Origin: Armatimonadia bacterium
GTDB lineage: Bacteria; Armatimonadota; Zipacnadia; Zipacnadales; JABUFB01
DNA length: 34,538 bases
Assembly (NCBI GenBank): GCA_039679385.1
Contig: JBDKVB010000105.1
Location: 1-34,538 of the forward strand
Direction of reading: 5' to 3'
Shown piece by piece: positions 3,260 to 31,433 of the stretch. Below the pieces are notes generated by a model that was not told the DNA's origin, did not search any database, and was given only the letters and a program-made list of their open reading frames with translations. The position numbers and the translations under genes are program-made. Positions within the stretch are counted from its first letter, which is position 1. Every line of letters starts with the position of its first letter.

Positions 3260-3535
3260 CTAGCCCTTGGTGGCCTGAAGTGCCGCTGCGCGCTTCATAA
3301 GACGTGACTTCCGCCGTGCGGCCGCACCCTTATGGAGGATGTTGCGCTTGGCAGCCTTGTCGATAGCCTTCTGCGCCGCGGCCATGGCAGCCGCCAGATC
3401 CTCGGCGCTACCTGCCTTGGCAACGTCCAGCGCCGCACGGGAGGCCAGCTTGATGGCCTTCTTCTTGGCGCGGTTCTGATCCCGCCTCTTGAGCGACTGT
3501 CGCAGAGCCTTCCTGGATGACGGAAGCTGTGGCAT
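3260..3535 (-). CDS. rpsT: 30S ribosomal protein S20 (bS20)
   Basis: A 91-residue, highly basic protein of the usual S20 length. It begins MPQLPSSRKALRQSLKRRDQ and continues with the Lys/Ala-rich helices typical of bS20: NRAKKKAIK near the N-terminus, and AAKRNILHKGAAARRKSRLM with a lysine/alanine tail at the C-terminus. S20 binds 16S rRNA early in assembly of the small subunit. The ATG at 3535 is preceded by GGGAGAGG at good spacing, which marks it as the true start within a longer open frame. The gene stands alone, as is common for rpsT, and has its own promoter about 120 bases upstream. The long leader leaves room for translational control, as reported for rpsT in E. coli, but no specific structure is claimed. 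Confidence 0.95.
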   Translation of the reverse strand: MPQLPSSRKALRQSLKRRDQNRAKKKAIKLASRAALDVAKAGSAEDLAAAMAAAQKAIDKAAKRNILHKGAAARRKSRLMKRAAALQATKG

Positions 3536-3652
3536 GAGACCTCTCCCATCCGACGCAATTCGAACCAAGCCCCCTAGGGACAATAAGCCGCCGGCTCTGT
3601 TGCCTCCGGCGCCCCTGGTTGCTCGGTAGCACGTGGCCTGTAAGTGGGTCGT

Positions 3653-3681
3653 AATATAACACAAACCTCGCCCCAACGCAA
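3653..3681 (-). promoter_or_regulatory. Sigma-70-type promoter of rpsT
   Basis: On the minus strand, TTGCGT (3676-3681) and TATATT (3653-3658) are separated by exactly 17 bp. The predicted transcript would start near 3646 and give a leader of roughly 110 bases before the rpsT ATG at 3535. This is among the most AT-rich patches of the intergenic region. Confidence 0.7.
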
Positions 3682-3890
3682 GGTTTCGCGACCTTCGGGC
3701 AGGACAAGGGGCTCCCGGCGGGGAATAGACCGTACCAGCCGCAGGTGACCTCCGCCGCCGGTCTGCGGCGCGAGTCCATCTCTGACGCCTGAACCAGAGG
3801 GCGTCGGCAGGCGTCCCCACAGACACAAGAGGCTTCGCCGGGCTGTGTCTCTCTTGCCGCACGGCCCTTATAGTGACGAGGGGTGAGACG
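3682..3890. other. Intergenic leader region upstream of the NHL gene
   Basis: No gene is visible here. The last 70 bases contain a possible stem (AGACACA at 3821-3827 with TGTGTCT at 3844-3850) just ahead of the ribosome-binding site of the gene at 3891. A TATAGT hexamer at 3869-3874 lacks a partner -35 element. The rest shows nothing I can support. Confidence 0.3.
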
Positions 3891-5708
3891 ATGTCCCTAC
3901 GAAAGCTGCTGCCCATCTTCTGTCTTCTGACCGTGGTGAGTGTGGCCGTCGCCCAGGAAGCGCCCACCTCAGCAGGACCAAAGGGCTACCGGTTCCTCCG
4001 GACCATCGGTGCTGCCGGAGCTGGAGCCCTCGACCGCGTGCTTGATCTCACCGCAGACAAGTACGGCAACCTCTATGTCGTCCAGAACCCCGGAAGCTCC
4101 ACCTTCCGCATCGATATCTTCCAGCGCAAGGGCACCTTCTACGGCAACTTCATGGAGAGCGCCGAGGAAACCGAGGCCGAGACCGCTGCCGCCGCCAAGG
4201 ACGCGAAGGCCAAGCCTGGCGAGATCCGTCGCCCGAGCTGCATCGCCACCGACAAGGACGACCGCTTGCTGATCGGCACTGAAGCCGACGGCGTCCTCGT
4301 CTTCGATGCGGAGGGCAGCTTCAGCAGCAAGCTCGGCGAGGGCCAGGGACTGACCAAGATCCGTGCCTTGCGCACCGATCCTGCCGGCAACGTCTACGTG
4401 TCTGCGCCCTCACGGACCTCCTCACTCTTCCGCTATGACTCCTCCGGGAAGCTCACCCTTGAGTACCCCCGGGAAGCCGTTCGCCAGGCTCCGGAGTCGA
4501 TCGCGGTGGACGAGAAGGGCTTCGTCTACCTCGTCGATTCAGAGGCCGGAATCGTGCGCATCACCCCGGAGGGCAAGCGCGACCCGGCCTACAAATCGCC
4601 CATACCCGGCTATGTGACCCGCGATGACGTGGCGGGCATCCGCCTGGCCTGCGACGCCAAGGGCAATGTCGTGGCTGCCTATCCTTCGAGCCGCCAGGGA
4701 GGCTCCTTCGTCGCCGTCCTGACCCCGCAGGGCACGGTGGCACAGAAGGCCAAGCAGATCCCCGGAACCGTCGAAGCCGCCCTGGGGACTCCCGACGGTT
4801 TCGCCTACATCGCCGCTGAAGGCCTCTTCTCTCAGAACCCGGCCATGGCCCGGCAGGCGCGCATCACCCGGGTCATGCTCTACAAATCCGATGGCACCGA
4901 AGTCCTCCGCTACGGCGCCGACGCCATGCCCGGACGTTTCGGCAAGATCGCTTGCCTGGCTCCCATATCCTCAGCTCTTGGCGGCGACCTGATCGTCCTC
5001 GACCGCACCGGCGTCATGCATCAGATGACCAAAGACGGCCAGGCGAGAGGCATTTTCGCCCATGCCTGGCCCTGTATCGTCGTTGTCGGCCCCGACCGTG
5101 GCGCCTTCCAGATCACCGGCGCGCAGTTCAACCTGCTGAGCTTCCGCGGCAAGCGCACCAAGTGGCAGACCCTCCGAGCCGCGGAGACCGGTGGCAGCGC
5201 CGTCCGTGTCACCGACGCCGTGGCCGACTTCGCGACCCAGACCCTCTACTGCGTCGACCAGGCCTCCCAGCGTATCGTCAAGCTGGATTTCGACTTCAAC
5301 TACAAGGGCGAGATCCGCACCTTCGGCACCAACGACAAGTTCCGCTATCCCTCCGGCGTGGCACTCTCGCCGGACGGCAACACCCTCTATGTCACCGAGT
5401 TCGGCGGCACGCAGCGTCTCCTCGCGCTTGACGCCAAGGCCGGCTCCCTCAAGTCTGAGCTGGCCAAGGGGCTGCAGGCACCGATGGTGCCCCGGGTAGG
5501 TCCGGATGGCGGCATCTTCGTCGTGGAGATGCGCGGCAAGCGCGTCCTGAAGTACAGCCCCACCGGCGAGAAGCTCGCTGAGTTCGCGGAGGCCGGGAAG
5601 ACCAAGTTCGAGTCACCTGCCGCCGTCGCAGTAGGCCCTGACGGAACGGTCTACATCGGCGACAACGCCACTTCCCTGGTCTACGTCTTCGTCCCCGGTC
5701 AGGGGTAG
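3891..5708 (+). CDS. Secreted NHL/six-bladed beta-propeller protein
   Basis: A 605-residue exported protein. The ATG at 3891 follows GAGGGGTGAG, and a signal peptide with core LLPIFCLLTVVSVAVA ends around residue 23. The body is built of repeated strands of NHL/SMP-30 type: KYGNLYVVQNPG near residue 62, IATDKDDRLLIGTEADG near 118, GVALSPDGNTLYVTEFGG near 490, and AVAVGPDGTVYIGD near the end. Such propellers usually bind ligands or proteins, and some are lactonases or lyases; nothing here shows catalysis. An Ala/Glu/Lys-rich patch (about residues 87-107, ESAEETEAETAAAAKDAK) interrupts the propeller and is probably a surface loop or helix. It is a single gene with a strong terminator after it, so its partner cannot be read from context. 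Confidence 0.85.
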   Translation: MSLRKLLPIFCLLTVVSVAVAQEAPTSAGPKGYRFLRTIGAAGAGALDRVLDLTADKYGNLYVVQNPGSSTFRIDIFQRKGTFYGNFMESAEETEAETAAAAKDAKAKPGEIRRPSCIATDKDDRLLIGTEADGVLVFDAEGSFSSKLGEGQGLTKIRALRTDPAGNVYVSAPSRTSSLFRYDSSGKLTLEYPREAVRQAPESIAVDEKGFVYLVDSEAGIVRITPEGKRDPAYKSPIPGYVTRDDVAGIRLACDAKGNVVAAYPSSRQGGSFVAVLTPQGTVAQKAKQIPGTVEAALGTPDGFAYIAAEGLFSQNPAMARQARITRVMLYKSDGTEVLRYGADAMPGRFGKIACLAPISSALGGDLIVLDRTGVMHQMTKDGQARGIFAHAWPCIVVVGPDRGAFQITGAQFNLLSFRGKRTKWQTLRAAETGGSAVRVTDAVADFATQTLYCVDQASQRIVKLDFDFNYKGEIRTFGTNDKFRYPSGVALSPDGNTLYVTEFGGTQRLLALDAKAGSLKSELAKGLQAPMVPRVGPDGGIFVVEMRGKRVLKYSPTGEKLAEFAEAGKTKFESPAAVAVGPDGTVYIGDNATSLVYVFVPGQG

Positions 5709-10799: not shown

Positions 10800-11795
10800 A
10801 TGACCTCCGCACCCTCTGCGTGGTTACTCTTCACTCTCTTCCAGGGCGCTCTCTGCATCTGGGGGCCGGGCGCGGTCCAACCGAAGGCCCTTAGCCCCGA
10901 GCGAGAGTCCATGTCGCTGAGCCGCCTTGCCGTGACTCGCGACGGAACGACCTGCTACTTCAGCGTCTCGCACAACCTGTGGCAAGCCTCGACGACCGGG
11001 GCCGCACCTAAGCAACTCACCACGCGCGGGCATGCGACGGTCGTCGACGAGGAGTTTGCAGAGCCCCACGATTGCGACTGCCCGCTGCTGTCTCCGGACG
11101 GCCGCTACCTGGCCTACCGCTACATGCCCGACAAGGGAGCCGCGCAGGTATGGCTCATGAACCTGCAGACCGGCAAGGACGCTCGGCTGGCCGACGACGC
11201 CGACCTTGGTCCCGGCTGCTGGACTCCTGACGGGTCGGCGATTGTCTTCGAGAAGGGCCAGAGCCTGTGGCGCGTTGAAGTCGCCACTGGTGCCCTCAGC
11301 CAGGTGACGCAGTGTCCGGCAGGTGCCCGAGTGGGCGACGGTCAACCAACCTTCAGCCCCGACGGCACGCTGGCCTTCACGCGTGACTTCGACCTGTGGC
11401 TCCTTCCTCCCAACTCGACAGCCGCGCGCCGTCTGACGAACACGAGCTACCTGCAGTGGCCGACCTGGAGCCCGGACGGCAAGCGCCTTGCTGCCTATGC
11501 CTCCCGCAGGGCCGGAGAAGGGGAAGACGCCGACCAGTGGGATGAGATCCACATGGTGGACCTCACGGGGACAACGAAGTGCCTGGTCTCGACCAGCAAC
11601 GCACCCGAGGGCACCCTTTCTGCCGCCCAGATCATCGGGTGGCTTAGCAACACCGAGCTGTTGATCGACCGCAATGTCGGGGAAGCGCCGCCGAAGGTCT
11701 ACGCCATCGACGTGAACACTGGCCTTTCGCGTCTCCTGCTGAAGCTTCGGGATGGCGACGAGATGCCAACGCTGTGGGTCCCGGGCCGTCAGTGA
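10800..11795 (+). CDS. Exported TolB/PD40-type beta-propeller protein
   Basis: A 331-residue protein starting at ATG 10800, preceded by GCGGGAGA. A signal-like segment (AWLLFTLFQGALCIWGPG) covers residues 7-24. The body has four clear PD40 repeats of the TolB propeller: LLSPDGRYLAYRYM, CWTPDGSAIVFEKG, TFSPDGTLAFTRD and TWSPDGKRLAAYASRR. These are spaced about 45-65 residues apart, and the last turns (GWLSNTELLIDRN, VYAIDVNTGLSRLL) complete the propeller. Such proteins bind partners or peptides rather than catalyse. It is the first gene of a tight cluster, with 37 bases to the sialidase-like gene, so it may share a role or substrate with it; that is inference. It lacks the N-terminal TolB domain, so it is not TolB itself. 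Confidence 0.85.
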   Translation: MTSAPSAWLLFTLFQGALCIWGPGAVQPKALSPERESMSLSRLAVTRDGTTCYFSVSHNLWQASTTGAAPKQLTTRGHATVVDEEFAEPHDCDCPLLSPDGRYLAYRYMPDKGAAQVWLMNLQTGKDARLADDADLGPGCWTPDGSAIVFEKGQSLWRVEVATGALSQVTQCPAGARVGDGQPTFSPDGTLAFTRDFDLWLLPPNSTAARRLTNTSYLQWPTWSPDGKRLAAYASRRAGEGEDADQWDEIHMVDLTGTTKCLVSTSNAPEGTLSAAQIIGWLSNTELLIDRNVGEAPPKVYAIDVNTGLSRLLLKLRDGDEMPTLWVPGRQ

Positions 11796-11832
11796 CGGTC
11801 TCAAATGCCCTGCTACGTCAGGAGGCTCCCTG

Positions 11833-13200
11833 ATGTCGCTGCGCAAAACCGAAGACGTGGTCATCTACCAGGACGATAGCTGGTACTCCTCCTTCCCGTC
11901 GCTGGTCACGCAGGATGACGGCACAGTCCTGTGTGCCTTTCGCCGCGCACCGGAGCGCCGAAAGTGGGGAGCAAGTGGCGTCACCCATGCCGACCCCAAC
12001 AGCGCCTGTGTCCTCGTTCGCTCGGAGGATGGCGGGGAGACCTGGAGCAAGCAACCGCTCACCGTCTGGGCCAATCCGCTCGCGGGCAACCAGGACCCGT
12101 GCATGTTCCAGCTTGCCGACGGCTCCCTGCTGTGTTCCACCTTCTCCTGGATGCTGCTGCATGGCGAGGCTCCCACGGCGCCGGGCATCATCAACGTCGC
12201 GCATCTGGGCTGGAAGATGGTGAACCTCGGGGCGAGCTGCCTGCGCTCGACAGACGGCGGACGAACCTGGACTGCTCCCGATCCACTGAGCGTCGCCGAG
12301 GACCCGGCCGTCATGAGCCATCTCATCGAGAAGCATCGCCCTGTGGTCGGGAAGCTGGCCAAAGAGTACGAGGACGAGTGCGATGTAAGCCTGGAGGAGC
12401 TCACCGCCGCCGGTGAGGTTGGCTTGCAGCGAGCGGCCGCGAGCTTCCGCGAGGGCAAGCACTTCGACTTCGGCACCTACGCCTCCTGGTGGGTCCGCTG
12501 GGCCATCACCTATGCCCTGACGCACGGTGGCCAGCCCTTGCGTGTGGCCGTTCCCATCGAGCCGCCACCCGGGCGGCCTCGCGAGGTGTATCCGGGCATT
12601 CCGAACCGTGGTGCCTGCCGGGGCAAGATGGCGCAGTTGCCTGACGGCCGCGTCCTGTGGCCGCTCTATGGCTTCCGCAAGGGGCCAATGCCCAGTGAGT
12701 CCTGCGTCTACGCCTCCGATGACGGCGGCGAGACCTGGCGCTACCTGTCACTGATCGCCGAGGATGAGGCAATCGGCTTCAACGAGACTTCGCTTCATCT
12801 GTGTCCGAGTGGCCGCCTGGTTGCCTTCCTGCGCACCACCGGCCTCGAGGGAGTCCTGGCCACCGCAAGCTCCTCTGACGGCGGCCAGACCTGGTCGCCC
12901 TGGCGTCAGAGCTCGATCTGGGGACACCCCTTCACCCCCTGTGCGCTCAAGGATGGCCGGGTGGCTCTCATCTACGGGCATCGGCGCGAGCCCTTTGGCA
13001 TCCGCATGAAGCTCCTCGACCCGGAGTGCTCAGACCTGGAGACCGCCGAGGAGTTGGTCCTGCGCACCGACGGCGGTAACGGCGACATCGGCTACCCGTG
13101 GGTCACTCCGCTGTCCGAGAGCAGGCTGCTGTGCGCGTACTACACGAACCATGACGACGGCACCCGCTACATCGCCGGGAGCATCGTCGAAGTTTCCTGA
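11833..13200 (+). CDS. Sialidase-like (BNR) propeller carrying an inserted sigma-70 region 2-like domain
   Basis: A 455-residue protein starting at ATG 11833 behind a strong AGGAGG site. It has no signal peptide. The sialidase superfamily is shown by four Asp-boxes: SEDGGETW (64-71), STDGGRTW (139-146), SDDGGETW (295-302) and SSDGGQTW (347-354). Family strands such as YPGIPNRGACRGKMAQLPDG and SLHLCPSGRLVAFLRTTG are also present. Residues about 153-243 do not belong to a propeller. They read as sigma-70 region 2 with its following linker (see the separate entry). Removing them leaves about 364 residues, a normal single six-bladed propeller. The protein sits between a PD40 propeller and a KDPG-type aldolase (gaps of 37 and 40 bases). 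A glycosidase reaction is not certain, because many such cytoplasmic or exported BNR proteins have no tested activity. Confidence 0.88.
   Translation: MSLRKTEDVVIYQDDSWYSSFPSLVTQDDGTVLCAFRRAPERRKWGASGVTHADPNSACVLVRSEDGGETWSKQPLTVWANPLAGNQDPCMFQLADGSLLCSTFSWMLLHGEAPTAPGIINVAHLGWKMVNLGASCLRSTDGGRTWTAPDPLSVAEDPAVMSHLIEKHRPVVGKLAKEYEDECDVSLEELTAAGEVGLQRAAASFREGKHFDFGTYASWWVRWAITYALTHGGQPLRVAVPIEPPPGRPREVYPGIPNRGACRGKMAQLPDGRVLWPLYGFRKGPMPSESCVYASDDGGETWRYLSLIAEDEAIGFNETSLHLCPSGRLVAFLRTTGLEGVLATASSSDGGQTWSPWRQSSIWGHPFTPCALKDGRVALIYGHRREPFGIRMKLLDPECSDLETAEELVLRTDGGNGDIGYPWVTPLSESRLLCAYYTNHDDGTRYIAGSIVEVS
12289..12561 (+). other. Sigma-70 region 2-like segment inside the sialidase-like gene
   Basis: Codons 153-243 of the gene at 11833. 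The order of elements follows primary-type sigma factors. First comes an opening helix HLIEKHRPVVGKLAKEY (compare LVEKNLRLVVxIAKKY), then SLEELTAAGEVGLQRAAASF (compare LEDLIQEGNxGLMRAVxKF). Next is DFGTYASWWVRWAIT (compare KFSTYATWWIRQAIT), then QPLRVAVPIE (compare RTIRIPVHMIE). The aromatic residues that open the promoter -10 element in E. coli sigma-70 (Phe427, Tyr430, Trp433, Trp434) have counterparts Phe213, Tyr216, Trp219 and Trp220. The counterpart of Gln437 is Trp223; that of Thr440 is kept as Thr226. No region 3 or 4 follows. The frame is open across both joins and base composition does not change. Confidence 0.8.
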
Positions 13201-21109: not shown

Positions 21110-22633
21110 TCAGTCCAGCACGACGATCTGTCCGACCTGGAGGTTCGCCTCGGGCGTCTGCTCGATGATATCACATCGGCTCGACTTGTCGAACACCTCC
21201 GCCACCTTGAGCCGGGCGACCCGCGTCCGGATCGTCTCGATCAGCTTGCCGGTGTCCGGGTCCCGCAGCTCCCGGCTCAGCCATACGCTGAAGGTGTCTC
21301 CCAGCCGGGCTCCCTGCTCCTTGCCGAAGGCGATGTAGGCCACCTGTCCGTCGGCCACCAGGATCTTGGCGGTGGTGGCAGTGACCTCCTCCGGCGGGTT
21401 CGCCGCAGCGATGAGCTCTTCACCAGGTACCGGAAGCATCGCCCGCATCGCCAGGACGTCGCAGAACTCGGTGGTCTCCCGGCGAGCGATGTCCATCGCC
21501 TCAGTCGCACGCAGGCGTACCTCGTACTCATCTTCCTCGGCGTCGTAGTTGTCTATCCGGTCGATCTTGTACCAGCGGTAGTCGAAGCCCCTGACCTCGT
21601 CCTCCTCCTCCGACTCCTGGCTCCCCTCGATCTTGTAGCTGATCAGACGCTCGCCCTTCGTGGCATCCACAAGGGTTATCTCGCCGGCCATCGAGGTCGT
21701 GTAGTTCCGCACCTGGTACGGCGCAGCCCACACCAGATCCGGGTCGGCGACCTTCTTGCTCACGGTTCGCCCCTTCCCGGCCTGGTCTGCTCGGTAGTCG
21801 TCGAGCCGTTGCTGGGCCTCCTGGGAGGTCATCGTGCGGTTGCTCTTCTTGAACTCGGTATGCTCCCTGCACTTGGTCGAAGCATCCGTGATCGTTGCGA
21901 AGGCCAGGGCCTGCACCTTCAGCTCCCGGGCCAGCTCCTGGATCTGCTTGAGCGTCGTGACACTCGACGGAGTCGATGCCGACATCGCCTCCCGTCCCAC
22001 CACCTCGAAGGCCCGCAGTTCCACCAGACCGCGGTAGAGCGCCGATTCTGCGGCGTTGCCTACACCCGCGAAGGCACGCTCGGCCAGCGAGGGCAGGCAC
22101 GCGATCGCGCGGATGCGGCGCAGATCGGCCACGGGATGCGTAATGGGTTTGGCCAGCGGGAACTGGTCCAACGCCGTGGCCTCGGTGAGCAGCGCATCCA
22201 CCAGCTTCTTCGTCGGCGCAGTGATGAGCATCTTGATGCTGTACAGCGCGGGCTTCTCCCCGGGTACCGACTTCGACGCAATCATCATCTCCGTCTCTGA
22301 GAGTACCTCGGGGGAGACCGGGAACTCGGCCTGCCAGCTCGGGTGGAGCGCAACGCCCTTCGGGTCCGACTTGATCAGGAACAGCACCAGCGGCACGTAT
22401 CCGGGCGGCAGCGTGAGACTCGCGCGGTCCGTGTCAGGGCTGACCCACAAGACGTACTTGGGCTTCACCTTGGTGAGCCAGTTCTCATAGCTGCTCCGCT
22501 CCAGGTTTGAGACGATCAGCACCGTTCCCTTGACCGTCTGGCGCGGAATGACCGGACCGCCGGCATAGGCCAGCGACACCCCAACCGTCCCTAACAGGAT
22601 GCAGGCGACCAACAACCGCACAAACCTCGTCAT
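21110..22633 (-). CDS. Secreted protein with CsgG/FlgT-C-like organisation
   Basis: A 507-residue exported protein. The ATG at 22633 is chosen because GAGGAG lies about nine bases ahead; ATG 22642 would touch its own ribosome-binding site. The signal peptide core is VRLLVACILLGTVGVSLAYA. Residues about 165-300 (IACLPSLAERAFAG, ALYRGLVELRAFEVVGRE, ELKVQALAFATI) recall the nucleotide-free alpha/beta domain of CsgG/FlgT-like secretion-associated proteins. A charged, acidic segment (EGSQESEEEDEVRGFDYRW, about 340-375) follows. The C-terminal 80 residues (GQVAYIAFGKEQGARLGDTF and RVARLKVAEVFD) fit the FlgT C-terminal domain fold. A function in outer-membrane assembly is possible, but the resemblance is distant. 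It is the upstream neighbour of ackA. Confidence 0.75.
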   Translation of the reverse strand: MTRFVRLLVACILLGTVGVSLAYAGGPVIPRQTVKGTVLIVSNLERSSYENWLTKVKPKYVLWVSPDTDRASLTLPPGYVPLVLFLIKSDPKGVALHPSWQAEFPVSPEVLSETEMMIASKSVPGEKPALYSIKMLITAPTKKLVDALLTEATALDQFPLAKPITHPVADLRRIRAIACLPSLAERAFAGVGNAAESALYRGLVELRAFEVVGREAMSASTPSSVTTLKQIQELARELKVQALAFATITDASTKCREHTEFKKSNRTMTSQEAQQRLDDYRADQAGKGRTVSKKVADPDLVWAAPYQVRNYTTSMAGEITLVDATKGERLISYKIEGSQESEEEDEVRGFDYRWYKIDRIDNYDAEEDEYEVRLRATEAMDIARRETTEFCDVLAMRAMLPVPGEELIAAANPPEEVTATTAKILVADGQVAYIAFGKEQGARLGDTFSVWLSRELRDPDTGKLIETIRTRVARLKVAEVFDKSSRCDIIEQTPEANLQVGQIVVLD

Positions 22634-22766
22634 ACTCCTCATCTCCTCAGCGGACCCCGTTCACGGCATCCACAATCGAAAAGGCAGCAGGCCGGACGCA
22701 AGGCCCGCAGATCTCCCACGGAAGCGCCCGGCCCACCTGACAGCGTATCCTTCTGCGTCCCGTAGG

Positions 22767-30215: not shown

Positions 30216-30244
30216 TTGCCCTGTTTGGCTACCTTTGCTATACT
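30216..30244 (+). promoter_or_regulatory. Sigma-70-type promoter of the TPR / GspF-like genes
   Basis: TTGCCC (30216-30221) and TATACT (30239-30244) are 17 bp apart. Predicted transcription starts near 30251, about 46 bases before the TPR gene ATG at 30297. It is the only clear promoter in this divergent gap. Confidence 0.68.
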
Positions 30245-30296: not shown

Positions 30297-30791
30297 ATGC
30301 GCCTGTTTCGACGGAGCACGCCACAGACACCACGCGCCAGGTTCCGTGCCGGTACGCAGGCTCTGAACGCCGGGCGCTATGATGAGGCCGTAGCCCTGCT
30401 GACGGCTGTGTGCAAGGACGCGCCCGACAACCTTGGTGCCTTGCTCAATCTGGGCCTCGCCTACCACCGCCTGGGGCAGCATACCAAGGCGATCCAGGCC
30501 TTCGAGCGGGTCCACGAGCTCAATCCCCGCGAGCCGCGTGCCTACCTCAATCGAGCTGCCGCTGAGAACGCCCTGGGGCACCTCGACAAGGCCGAGCAGG
30601 CTCTCCTGCAGGCTCTGGAGATCGATCCGCGGCAGGTCGGCGTGCACTACAATCTCGCCGTGATCCACCTGAAGCGCAACCAGTACGCGAACGCCATGGC
30701 CGAGATGGAGCTTGAGTTGGCGGTCAACCCCGGTCATCGTGAGACCGAGATCGCCCTCCGAGCCCTGCGAGAACGCTTGATGCTGCGCTGA
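30297..30791 (+). CDS. Tetratricopeptide-repeat protein
   Basis: A 164-residue, soluble TPR protein. ATG 30297 has GGGGAG ten bases upstream. About four 34-residue repeats are visible, with the standard pattern of small and aromatic residues: AGTQALNAGRYDEAVALLTA, then LLNLGLAYHRLGQHTKAIQA, then LNRAAAENALGHLDKAEQAL, then YNLAVIHLKRNQYANAMAEM. A basic N-terminus (MRLFRRSTPQTPRARFR) precedes them. TPR domains bind proteins. The gene is followed after a hairpin by a GspF/PilC-like gene, so it may scaffold a secretion- or pilus-related assembly. It has no signal peptide, so it acts in the cytoplasm or at the inner face of the membrane. Confidence 0.88.
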   Translation: MRLFRRSTPQTPRARFRAGTQALNAGRYDEAVALLTAVCKDAPDNLGALLNLGLAYHRLGQHTKAIQAFERVHELNPREPRAYLNRAAAENALGHLDKAEQALLQALEIDPRQVGVHYNLAVIHLKRNQYANAMAEMELELAVNPGHRETEIALRALRERLMLR

Positions 30792-30799
30792 GGCCTCAC

Positions 30800-30821
30800 C
30801 CGGTCGCCTTCTTGCGACCGG
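30800..30821 (+). terminator. Hairpin between the TPR and GspF-like genes
   Basis: CCGGTCGC (30800-30807) pairs perfectly with GCGACCGG (30814-30821) across a CTTCTT loop. It lies eight bases after the TPR stop. It may act as a partial terminator or an mRNA-processing or stabilising element inside a two-gene transcript. Confidence 0.45.
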
Positions 30822-30854
30822 TCCCGGCAGATTCCACGAGCACTGAGGTGTTCC

Positions 30855-31433
30855 ATGCCCCCGGAAGAGATGGACGTCGGCAATGCGGAGATGGCCCAGT
30901 TCTGCCGCCAGTTCTCCAGCCTCATGCACGCCCAGGTCAACATCATCGACATCTTCGAGGCCCTGCGTGAGCAGACCGGCAGTGCCCTGCTCCGCGAGAT
31001 TCTCGACCACGTGCGCGAGGATGTGGAGATGGGCCGTACGCTGGCCACGGCCTTCAGCCGCTACCCGCAGGTCTTCTCTCCCTTCTTCATCAGCATGATC
31101 CGCCAGGGCGAGCTTGAGGGTGAGCTCGATCGCATCCTCACCGACCTTGCGACGCACTTCGAGACGCGCCTGGAGGATGGCGTCGATGCAACCCGACGCC
31201 GTGACACAGGCGGCTTTGACCTCGAGGGCATTGCCTCCGTCTTCCAGTGGATCTTCATCTGGTTCTCCGCGCTCCTGGGCTTCTGCGCCTTCGGCGGAGG
31301 CCTTGTCTATTACGCGACCGACATGGGTGCCATTCCCGGCCGGGTGCCCGCCAATATCGCCCTCTTCGTCGGCGTCATCATGTTCCTCGGAGTCCTGGTC
31401 TTCACCCGTGGCCGCCGTCGTCGAAGGGGGTAA
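30855..31433 (+). CDS. Half-size type II secretion / type IV pilus platform protein (GspF/PilC-like)
   Basis: A 192-residue protein with one T2SSF domain where canonical GspF/PilC proteins have two in about 400 residues. Residues 12-105 fit the T2SSF helix bundle: FCRQFSSLMHAQVNIIDIFE, LLREILDHVREDVEMGRTLA, and the conserved FFISMIRQGELEGELDRIL. Two hydrophobic segments follow (about 128-152 IFIWFSALLGFCAFGGGLV, and 165-184). The C-terminus is basic (RGRRRRRG). ATG 30855 has GAGGTG upstream. GspF-like proteins form the inner-membrane platform that couples the ATPase to pseudopilin polymerisation. None of the other pilus genes is here, and whether a half-size protein works alone, as a dimer, or not at all is open. 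Confidence 0.85.
   Translation: MPPEEMDVGNAEMAQFCRQFSSLMHAQVNIIDIFEALREQTGSALLREILDHVREDVEMGRTLATAFSRYPQVFSPFFISMIRQGELEGELDRILTDLATHFETRLEDGVDATRRRDTGGFDLEGIASVFQWIFIWFSALLGFCAFGGGLVYYATDMGAIPGRVPANIALFVGVIMFLGVLVFTRGRRRRRG

Follow-up and report, generated by a model that had tools for sequence, protein, structure and literature searches.

The platform proteins of the GspF/PilC family carry two cytoplasmic T2SSF domains (Cyto1 and Cyto2), and published platform models have two cytoplasmic domains facing six ATPase subunits, either as a PilC/PulF trimer or as a TadB-TadC heterodimer. Pull-downs indicate that PilB binds the N-terminal domain of PilC (PMC5424180), and in the model of PulE-PulF each PulF Cyto domain sits on one PulE N2D (PMC10790770). 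A Tyr-Pro pair in TMS1 and a Glu-Pro pair in TMS3 of PulF line its channel and are called conserved in all GspF/PilC homologs (PMC10790770). Two further systems use smaller proteins: TadB and TadC (CpaG/CpaH) have been reported as the product of fission of a two-domain ancestor (PMC6668835), and the SpoIIIAA/SpoIIIAB pair combines a type II/IV-secretion-type ATPase with a GspF-like protein in the sporulation secretion apparatus, not in a pilus (PMC2703783). Statements on the cited papers refer here and below to the accessible parts of their text. Our literature searches for orphan, truncated or single-domain GspF/PilC platforms retrieved no comparable case, those for a GspF with a ClpX-type zinc finger retrieved none, and the accessible main text of the Zipacnadia description paper (PMC10290634) contains no word starting with “pil”.

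Architecture and genomic context of the half-size GspF

The window, i.e., the whole stretch of DNA analyzed (34,538 nt), lies on contig C105 of genome G000 (5.6 Mb, 184 contigs). It encodes a half-size GspF/PilC-like protein of 192 aa (30855..31433, + strand; hereafter half-GspF), which was recognized by ORF calling, Pfam and its orthologs. Its single T2SSF domain of the Cyto1 type (residues 16-108; 30900..31178, + strand) was identified by Pfam (77.9 bits, profile positions 1-94 of 125), by a domain tree, by fold and by profile alignment. The Pfam scan at an E-value of 1 returned this match and a weak PilY1 match, nothing else; membership in the SpoIIIAB family was rejected, as no SpoIIIAB match was obtained at this threshold. 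Each half-GspF scanned contained one T2SSF domain, each PilC/GspF control two. The original prediction of a GspF-like protein with one T2SSF domain, followed by two C-terminal membrane segments and a basic tail, was thereby borne out: hydrophobic segments peak at residues 133-151 and 164-182 and are followed by the tail RGRRRRRG, and the AF2 model, which is of moderate quality (pLDDT 77.5, pTM 0.50), has helices at residues 123-155 and 164-191. The first membrane helix (residues 123-155; 31221..31319, + strand) is of the FQW[IL]FIW type and has no Tyr-Pro according to hydrophobicity, the AF2 model and the ortholog alignment. The second starts at residue 164, extends to about residue 186 and is followed by the Arg-rich tail (helix and tail together 31344..31430, + strand), as judged from hydrophobicity, the AF2 model and the orthologs.

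The best fold matches of the AF2 model were the N-terminal domain of PilC (2whn, Z 17.5 over 108 residues) and the Cyto1 domains of OutF/EpsF (Z 16-17), with weaker matches to TcpE (Z 12.4) and SpoIIIAB (6bs9, Z 9.3, 105 residues, rmsd 3.0, 7% identity). Profile comparison by hhalign against two-domain PilC/GspF aligned residues 5-107 of half-GspF and no more, so the membrane hairpin cannot be called homologous to PilC.

The half-GspF gene follows, on the same strand and after a gap of 63 nt, a gene for a TPR protein of 164 aa (30297..30791, + strand; ORF call, with matches to many Pfam TPR families). This protein begins with MRLFRR (often MWPF..R in its orthologs) and has no signal peptide by eye. 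The gap contains a perfect 8-bp hairpin without a T run (30800..30821, + strand; fold and sequence). A sigma-70-like consensus scan gave one promoter match upstream of the TPR gene (30216..30244, + strand; 9/12 matches, one found versus 0.2 expected, a consensus match alone) and none in the gap. The shared promoter that had been proposed for both genes agrees with this arrangement as a prediction only.

No pilin, T2SSE ATPase or second T2SSF domain, and hence no paired T2SSF paralog beside a Tad-type ATPase, was matched by Pfam among 26 window proteins, which comprised 25 of the 26 called genes plus the TPR gene (left out was the weak ORF at 3260-3967). The scan was run once at an E-value of 1 and otherwise at 1e-5. 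The absence of a pilin gene near half-GspF, as originally noted, therefore holds within the window for proteins long enough for the gene caller, shorter pilins being beyond its reach. Three of the scanned proteins matched no Pfam family. Elsewhere in the window, one ORF (11752-13200, + strand) combines matches to Sigma70_r2 (residues 191-256) and, behind it, to BNR_2 (residues 278-456), and by eye BNR-like sequence also precedes Sigma70_r2, giving the appearance of a sigma-region-2-like insertion in a BNR propeller; a 510-aa protein (21110-22642, - strand) has an FlgT_C match at its C-terminus.

Conservation and Cyto1 origin of the single domain

Long matches to half-GspF (P0001) were found in 38 of 61 genomes searched, with 52-78% identity outside its own genome, and 36 of them were complete proteins of 189-202 aa. 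Contig-cut pieces in two further genomes (G009 and G029) brought the number of half-GspF genomes to 40, all of which belong to a set of 43 genomes (G000-G042) covering the order and its nearest families; the three members of this set without half-GspF are 85, 59, and 76% complete. One of the two remaining long matches (L048) is cut by a contig end and the other, from G010 (L073:7933-8433, - strand), stops early after TM1 at 166 aa and represents a truncated allele or a sequence error. Both were excluded, together with the fragments L081-L083, from all counts based on 36 sequences, and both were kept in the profile used for the TPR/ATPase linkage search. With the family alignment as query, 49 of the 291 genomes of the phylum yielded a member, each aligned across 167 or more of the 191 positions and scoring at least 180.6 bits; next came a single contig-cut fragment (123 bits), followed by proteins from longer frames at 110 bits. 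Complete orthologs span the order and the class (Candidatus Zipacnadia/WS1, Armatimonadota). The scope beyond Armatimonadota is that of a close-relative scan, which returned 6 loci, all from Zipacnadia/WS1/Armatimonadetes, and more distant relatives elsewhere are possible. The dN/dS ratio of half-GspF was 0.06-0.19 by NG86 (seven pairs) and 0.04-0.09 by YN00 (four computable pairs).

These data bear on whether half-GspF is a two-domain GspF copy that has been cut short or is in decay. Its length and domain content match the N-terminal half only and one ortholog, that of G010, does end early, both of which would suit such a copy, but a length of 189-202 aa is kept in 36 complete orthologs, dN/dS is 0.04-0.19 and members occur in 49 of 291 genomes. 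By length and by selection alike, truncation or decay is refuted and is regarded as extremely improbable, and half-GspF is a conserved family under purifying selection rather than a broken copy. A frameshift, named beforehand as a sign of a truncated copy, was not found, nor was a lost second half, and the orthologs are complete at the same length. Stops inside half-GspF matches were the terminal stops of the genes, and the only early end was that in L073.

The suggestion of a split platform likewise found no support. A T2SSF search of the own genome revealed no matching C-terminal half; its other 12 T2SSF domains belong to three two-domain proteins and to three adjacent Tad-sized pairs (labeled Tad from size, pairing and the ATPase in front). 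A second single-domain GspF, for which a search of this genome had been advised, was represented by these Tad-type pairs and by no partner half.

In the tree of T2SSF domains the half-GspFs sit among the N-terminal domains of two-domain PilC/GspFs (FastTree only, ca. 95 columns, midpoint root; Tad domains, which the search profile did not reach, lie outside this tree). Their mean identity was 34.0% to GspF N-domains compared to 25.3% to C-domains (18 half-GspFs by 5 PilC/GspFs). The domain derives from the N-terminal (Cyto1) half of PilC/GspF and, given this grouping and identity, the family has the appearance of a GspF/PilC in which Cyto1 was retained and the remainder lost. The recommended comparison with half-size TadB/TadC held insofar as each has one T2SSF domain, but both fold and sequence are nearer to PilC/GspF Cyto1, and a Tad-type origin was not supported by domain similarity or fold comparison.

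The channel signature was absent as well. Tyr-Pro at TM1 occurred in none of 36 half-GspFs (a lone YP lies in a loop of L058), and the proteins lack the second T2SSF domain and TM3, thus having two membrane segments and not three. Both Tyr-Pro and Glu-Pro were present in all five ATPase-linked PilC/GspFs of the phylum and, overall, in five of the seven two-domain membrane GspFs examined. Loss of the pair is not exclusive to half-GspFs: in the own genome, L085 (C2) has Tyr-Pro without Glu-Pro and L086 (C16) has neither. The former (L085:5022-6032, - strand) is an orphan two-domain GspF of 336 aa that adjoins a DnaJ-like protein (by eye). With TM3 and the Tyr-Pro/Glu-Pro residues gone, half-GspF probably does not support PilC-like pilin polymerization.

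TPR and orphan ATPase partners

The TPR gene is located upstream of half-GspF in 22 of 40 genomes from 8 families, at a distance of 13-149 nt in 21 genomes and of 798 nt, with another ORF between, in G042. The pair, whose conservation in related genomes had been put forward as a check, is thus kept in these 22. Only two neighbor clusters, TPR and an orphan GspE/PilB-type ATPase, were found within two genes of half-GspF in more than two families. In 14 of the 40 genomes, for the neighborhoods examined, the TPR gene is beside neither half-GspF nor the ATPase. A TPR fragment beside the G012 ATPase (67 bits, at a contig edge) was not counted, G012 already having a TPR gene beside half-GspF. In L093, a TPR protein with many repeats (140 bits in total, best single match 39) was judged unrelated and discarded.

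The ATPase carries T2SSE and MshEN domains in G000 (Pfam), and through MshEN it may be subject to control by c-di-GMP. A query with one ATPase split the 61 genomes into 35 with at least 344 bits and the remainder, the next best match being 259 bits. All 35 carry half-GspF (G009 and G029 as contig-cut pieces), and five of the 40 half-GspF genomes (G013, G023, G034, G039, and G040, which are 92, 86, 80, 68, and 67% complete) yielded no member of the ATPase group. Walker A was present in 35 of 35 ATPases, Walker B in 34 and the His box in 33, the misses being contig-cut. The group was monophyletic (0.954 in FastTree; UFBoot 98 for ten members). FastTree joined it to the GspE of two T2SS-like operons (0.996), for which support in IQ-TREE was only 59, so that its origin may lie with either PilB or GspE. 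Co-occurrence of half-GspF and the ATPase had p = 5e-12 over the 61 genomes and p = 0.0045 within the 43 of the order and nearest families; as it partly reflects common descent, gene linkage bears most weight. The ATPase is divergently oriented beside half-GspF in 7 of the 35 genomes, from four families (G006, G019, G022, G028, G031, G041, and G042), with the TPR gene standing between the two in G031, G041, and G042. It is divergent from the TPR ortholog, with half-GspF elsewhere, in G008, G017, G026, and G029, so that in 11 of 35 ATPase genomes it lies divergently beside half-GspF and/or the TPR gene. The original statement that no ATPase is nearby was correct for the window but misleading, since relatives have a GspE/PilB-type ATPase beside half-GspF or the TPR gene and the own genome retains it as an orphan on another contig (C68).

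Several further genes were noted, some of them beside these ATPases. No GspF-like gene lies beside the orphan ATPase in G000. A candidate second half-size GspF beside this ATPase in G001-G003, which belong to the same family as G000, was rejected, as the gene encodes a two-domain GspF without membrane segments. Such two-domain, membrane-less GspF-like genes (L096:6071-6937, - strand; L132:3884-4840, - strand; L133:4122-5003, - strand; the latter two ranges being stop-to-stop frames) adjoin the orphan ATPase and a TPR/zinc-ribbon protein. In the own genome, L109:3683-5610 (+ strand) encodes, in this order, an ECF-size factor of the sigma-70 family and a GspE-like ATPase that bears a zf-HC2 domain at its N-terminus. 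Tandem clusters of PilT-like ATPases were also seen, three in 7 of the 15 genomes and two in another 7 at the search threshold used (L093:7004-11030, + strand; also L097, L099, L100, L101, L102, and L105).

The own genome encodes a PilB-PilT-PilC operon with pilin-like genes on C91 (genes named by eye except those scored by Pfam). Half-GspF could alternatively be a regulator of the canonical type IV pilus, acting either as a decoy that binds the ATPase or as a hetero-oligomer partner that competes or mixes with PilC. A longer PilC-like match is present in at least 37 of the 40 half-GspF genomes, at least 34 of them in frames of at least 400 aa, while G009, G014, and G017 show none among the matches listed, and half-GspF retains the Cyto1 domain that faces PilB. 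The conserved neighbors, however, are the TPR gene and the separate orphan ATPase and not a PilB-PilT-PilC operon, and the operon of the own genome is on another contig. We therefore consider a role as pilus regulator unlikely.

A similarly low probability was assigned to half-GspF being a true minimal platform, the homo-oligomers of which would assemble, together with the orphan ATPase, some of the pilins or pseudopilins whose genes lie elsewhere in the genome. Pilus assembly by half-size platforms is known (TadB/TadC; PMC6668835, PMC12019362), the catalytic motifs of the ATPase are retained, and in the own genome pilin-like genes adjoin PilC (by eye) and 9 secretin matches were obtained. On the other hand, TM3, the second Cyto domain and both the Tyr-Pro and Glu-Pro pairs are missing, and pilins were neither matched in the window by Pfam nor noticed by eye among the neighbor genes of relatives.

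Of the 49 members in the phylum, 11 (G043-G045, G054, G063, G064, G066, and G117-G120) carry a C4 zinc finger of the ClpX type behind the membrane hairpin, in 11 of 11 by motif and in 10 of 11 above the Pfam cut-off (zf-C4_ClpX). By sequence, the finger of L162 matches the solved ClpX zinc-binding domains (ZBDs) 1ovx and 2ds7, and its fold matches 2ds8. An orphan ATPase that groups with those of Zipacnadia (UFBoot 100) is present in four of these 11 genomes and was not found in the other seven. The control consisted of nine genomes without half-GspF, which reached at best 464 bits compared to 487-533 for the four positives, and the control ATPase L170 (G048) was the sister of the whole orphan-ATPase group. 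EF-P is encoded directly upstream of the zinc-finger half-GspF in L161, L162, L163, and L165 and one gene away in L166 (Pfam), and in L078 an EF-P-like gene is located ca. 0.4 kb upstream (by eye). DnaE (DNA polymerase III alpha) adjoins the gene in L162 and L163 and, by eye, in L164 and L165. In G066, L163:8265-9947 (- strand) encodes a single polypeptide, interrupted by the contig end, in which one T2SSF domain is naturally fused to a T2SSE ATPase. This fusion suggests that one T2SSF domain can serve one ATPase.

Putative function and comparison with known systems

The half-size form is kept class-wide, the TPR pair occurs in 22 of 40 genomes and truncation is excluded, which fits the original proposal of a minimal platform or of an orphan used for another membrane process. 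The binding of PilB to the N-terminal domain of PilC and the PulE-PulF model, taken together with the retained Cyto1 domain and anchor and with the co-inherited ATPase, point to a docking platform. We give an even chance to the reading that we consider most likely, namely that half-GspF is a membrane docking platform or anchor for the orphan ATPase, with the TPR protein as adaptor, and not a canonical platform; it would act in the manner of PilC Cyto1 or of SpoIIIAB. The Cyto1 domain would dock the ATPase, and the two-helix hairpin with its basic cytoplasmic tail would hold the protein in the inner membrane. The partner would be the dedicated orphan GspE/PilB-type ATPase, encoded on another contig here and adjacent in relatives, and the TPR protein may act as a cytoplasmic adaptor of the pair. 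Several copies of half-GspF could oligomerize, their single domains filling the places of PilC Cyto1 and Cyto2, and such an oligomer may serve to anchor the ATPase hexamer at the membrane or to gate it. Half-GspF would more likely recruit, hold or regulate the motor, or couple it to another membrane cargo. A pilus-type motor may thus operate here without its usual platform.

A broader reading, more tentative than the docking platform, derives these proteins from a type II secretion/pilus motor that has dispensed with the filament, i.e., a GspE-type ATPase on a channel-less half-GspF with a TPR adaptor or, in the deeper form, a ClpX-type zinc-finger tail, using ATP to drive a process at the inner membrane that has nothing to do with pili. 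ClpX ZBDs dimerize and dock adaptors (PMC7226468), and the zinc-finger form might connect ClpXP-type adaptors or substrates with the traffic ATPase or with the membrane, or might dimerize half-platforms into PilC-like pairs. These fingers resemble the N-terminal ZBD of ClpX but form the C-terminal domain of the 11 deeper relatives, behind T2SSF and two membrane segments and without the ClpX AAA+ domain, and are absent from the branch to which the half-GspF of the window belongs.

Compared with GspF/PilC, half-GspF shares the six-helix T2SSF bundle, being nearest to the N-terminal domain in both sequence and fold, and its putative partner ATPase is of the same superfamily. It differs in its smaller number of T2SSF domains (one, not two) and of membrane segments (two, not three), in lacking a Tyr-Pro/Glu-Pro pair and, as far as the window shows, in its location outside a pilus operon. 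TadB and TadC likewise have one T2SSF domain per protein, whereas half-GspF groups with the Cyto1 domains of bacterial PilC/GspF, begins almost directly at the domain, has no pair partner and is not part of a Tad-type locus, the three Tad-type pairs of its own genome being elsewhere. SpoIIIAB also consists of a single GspF-like helical domain (6bs9, Z 9.3), but half-GspF has only 7% identity to it in the structural alignment, has no Pfam match to SpoIIIAB and is much closer to PilC, and the window contains no sporulation operon. In its mode of action, the putative half-GspF/ATPase pair would most closely resemble the SpoIIIAA/SpoIIIAB pair. If the docking platform is true, a conserved single-Cyto1 platform that lacks the channel residues and has its own co-inherited ATPase would separate motor docking from pilin polymerization, making each testable apart, and half-GspF with its ATPase would be a second motor-platform pair outside filament assembly, after SpoIIIAA/SpoIIIAB of sporulation.
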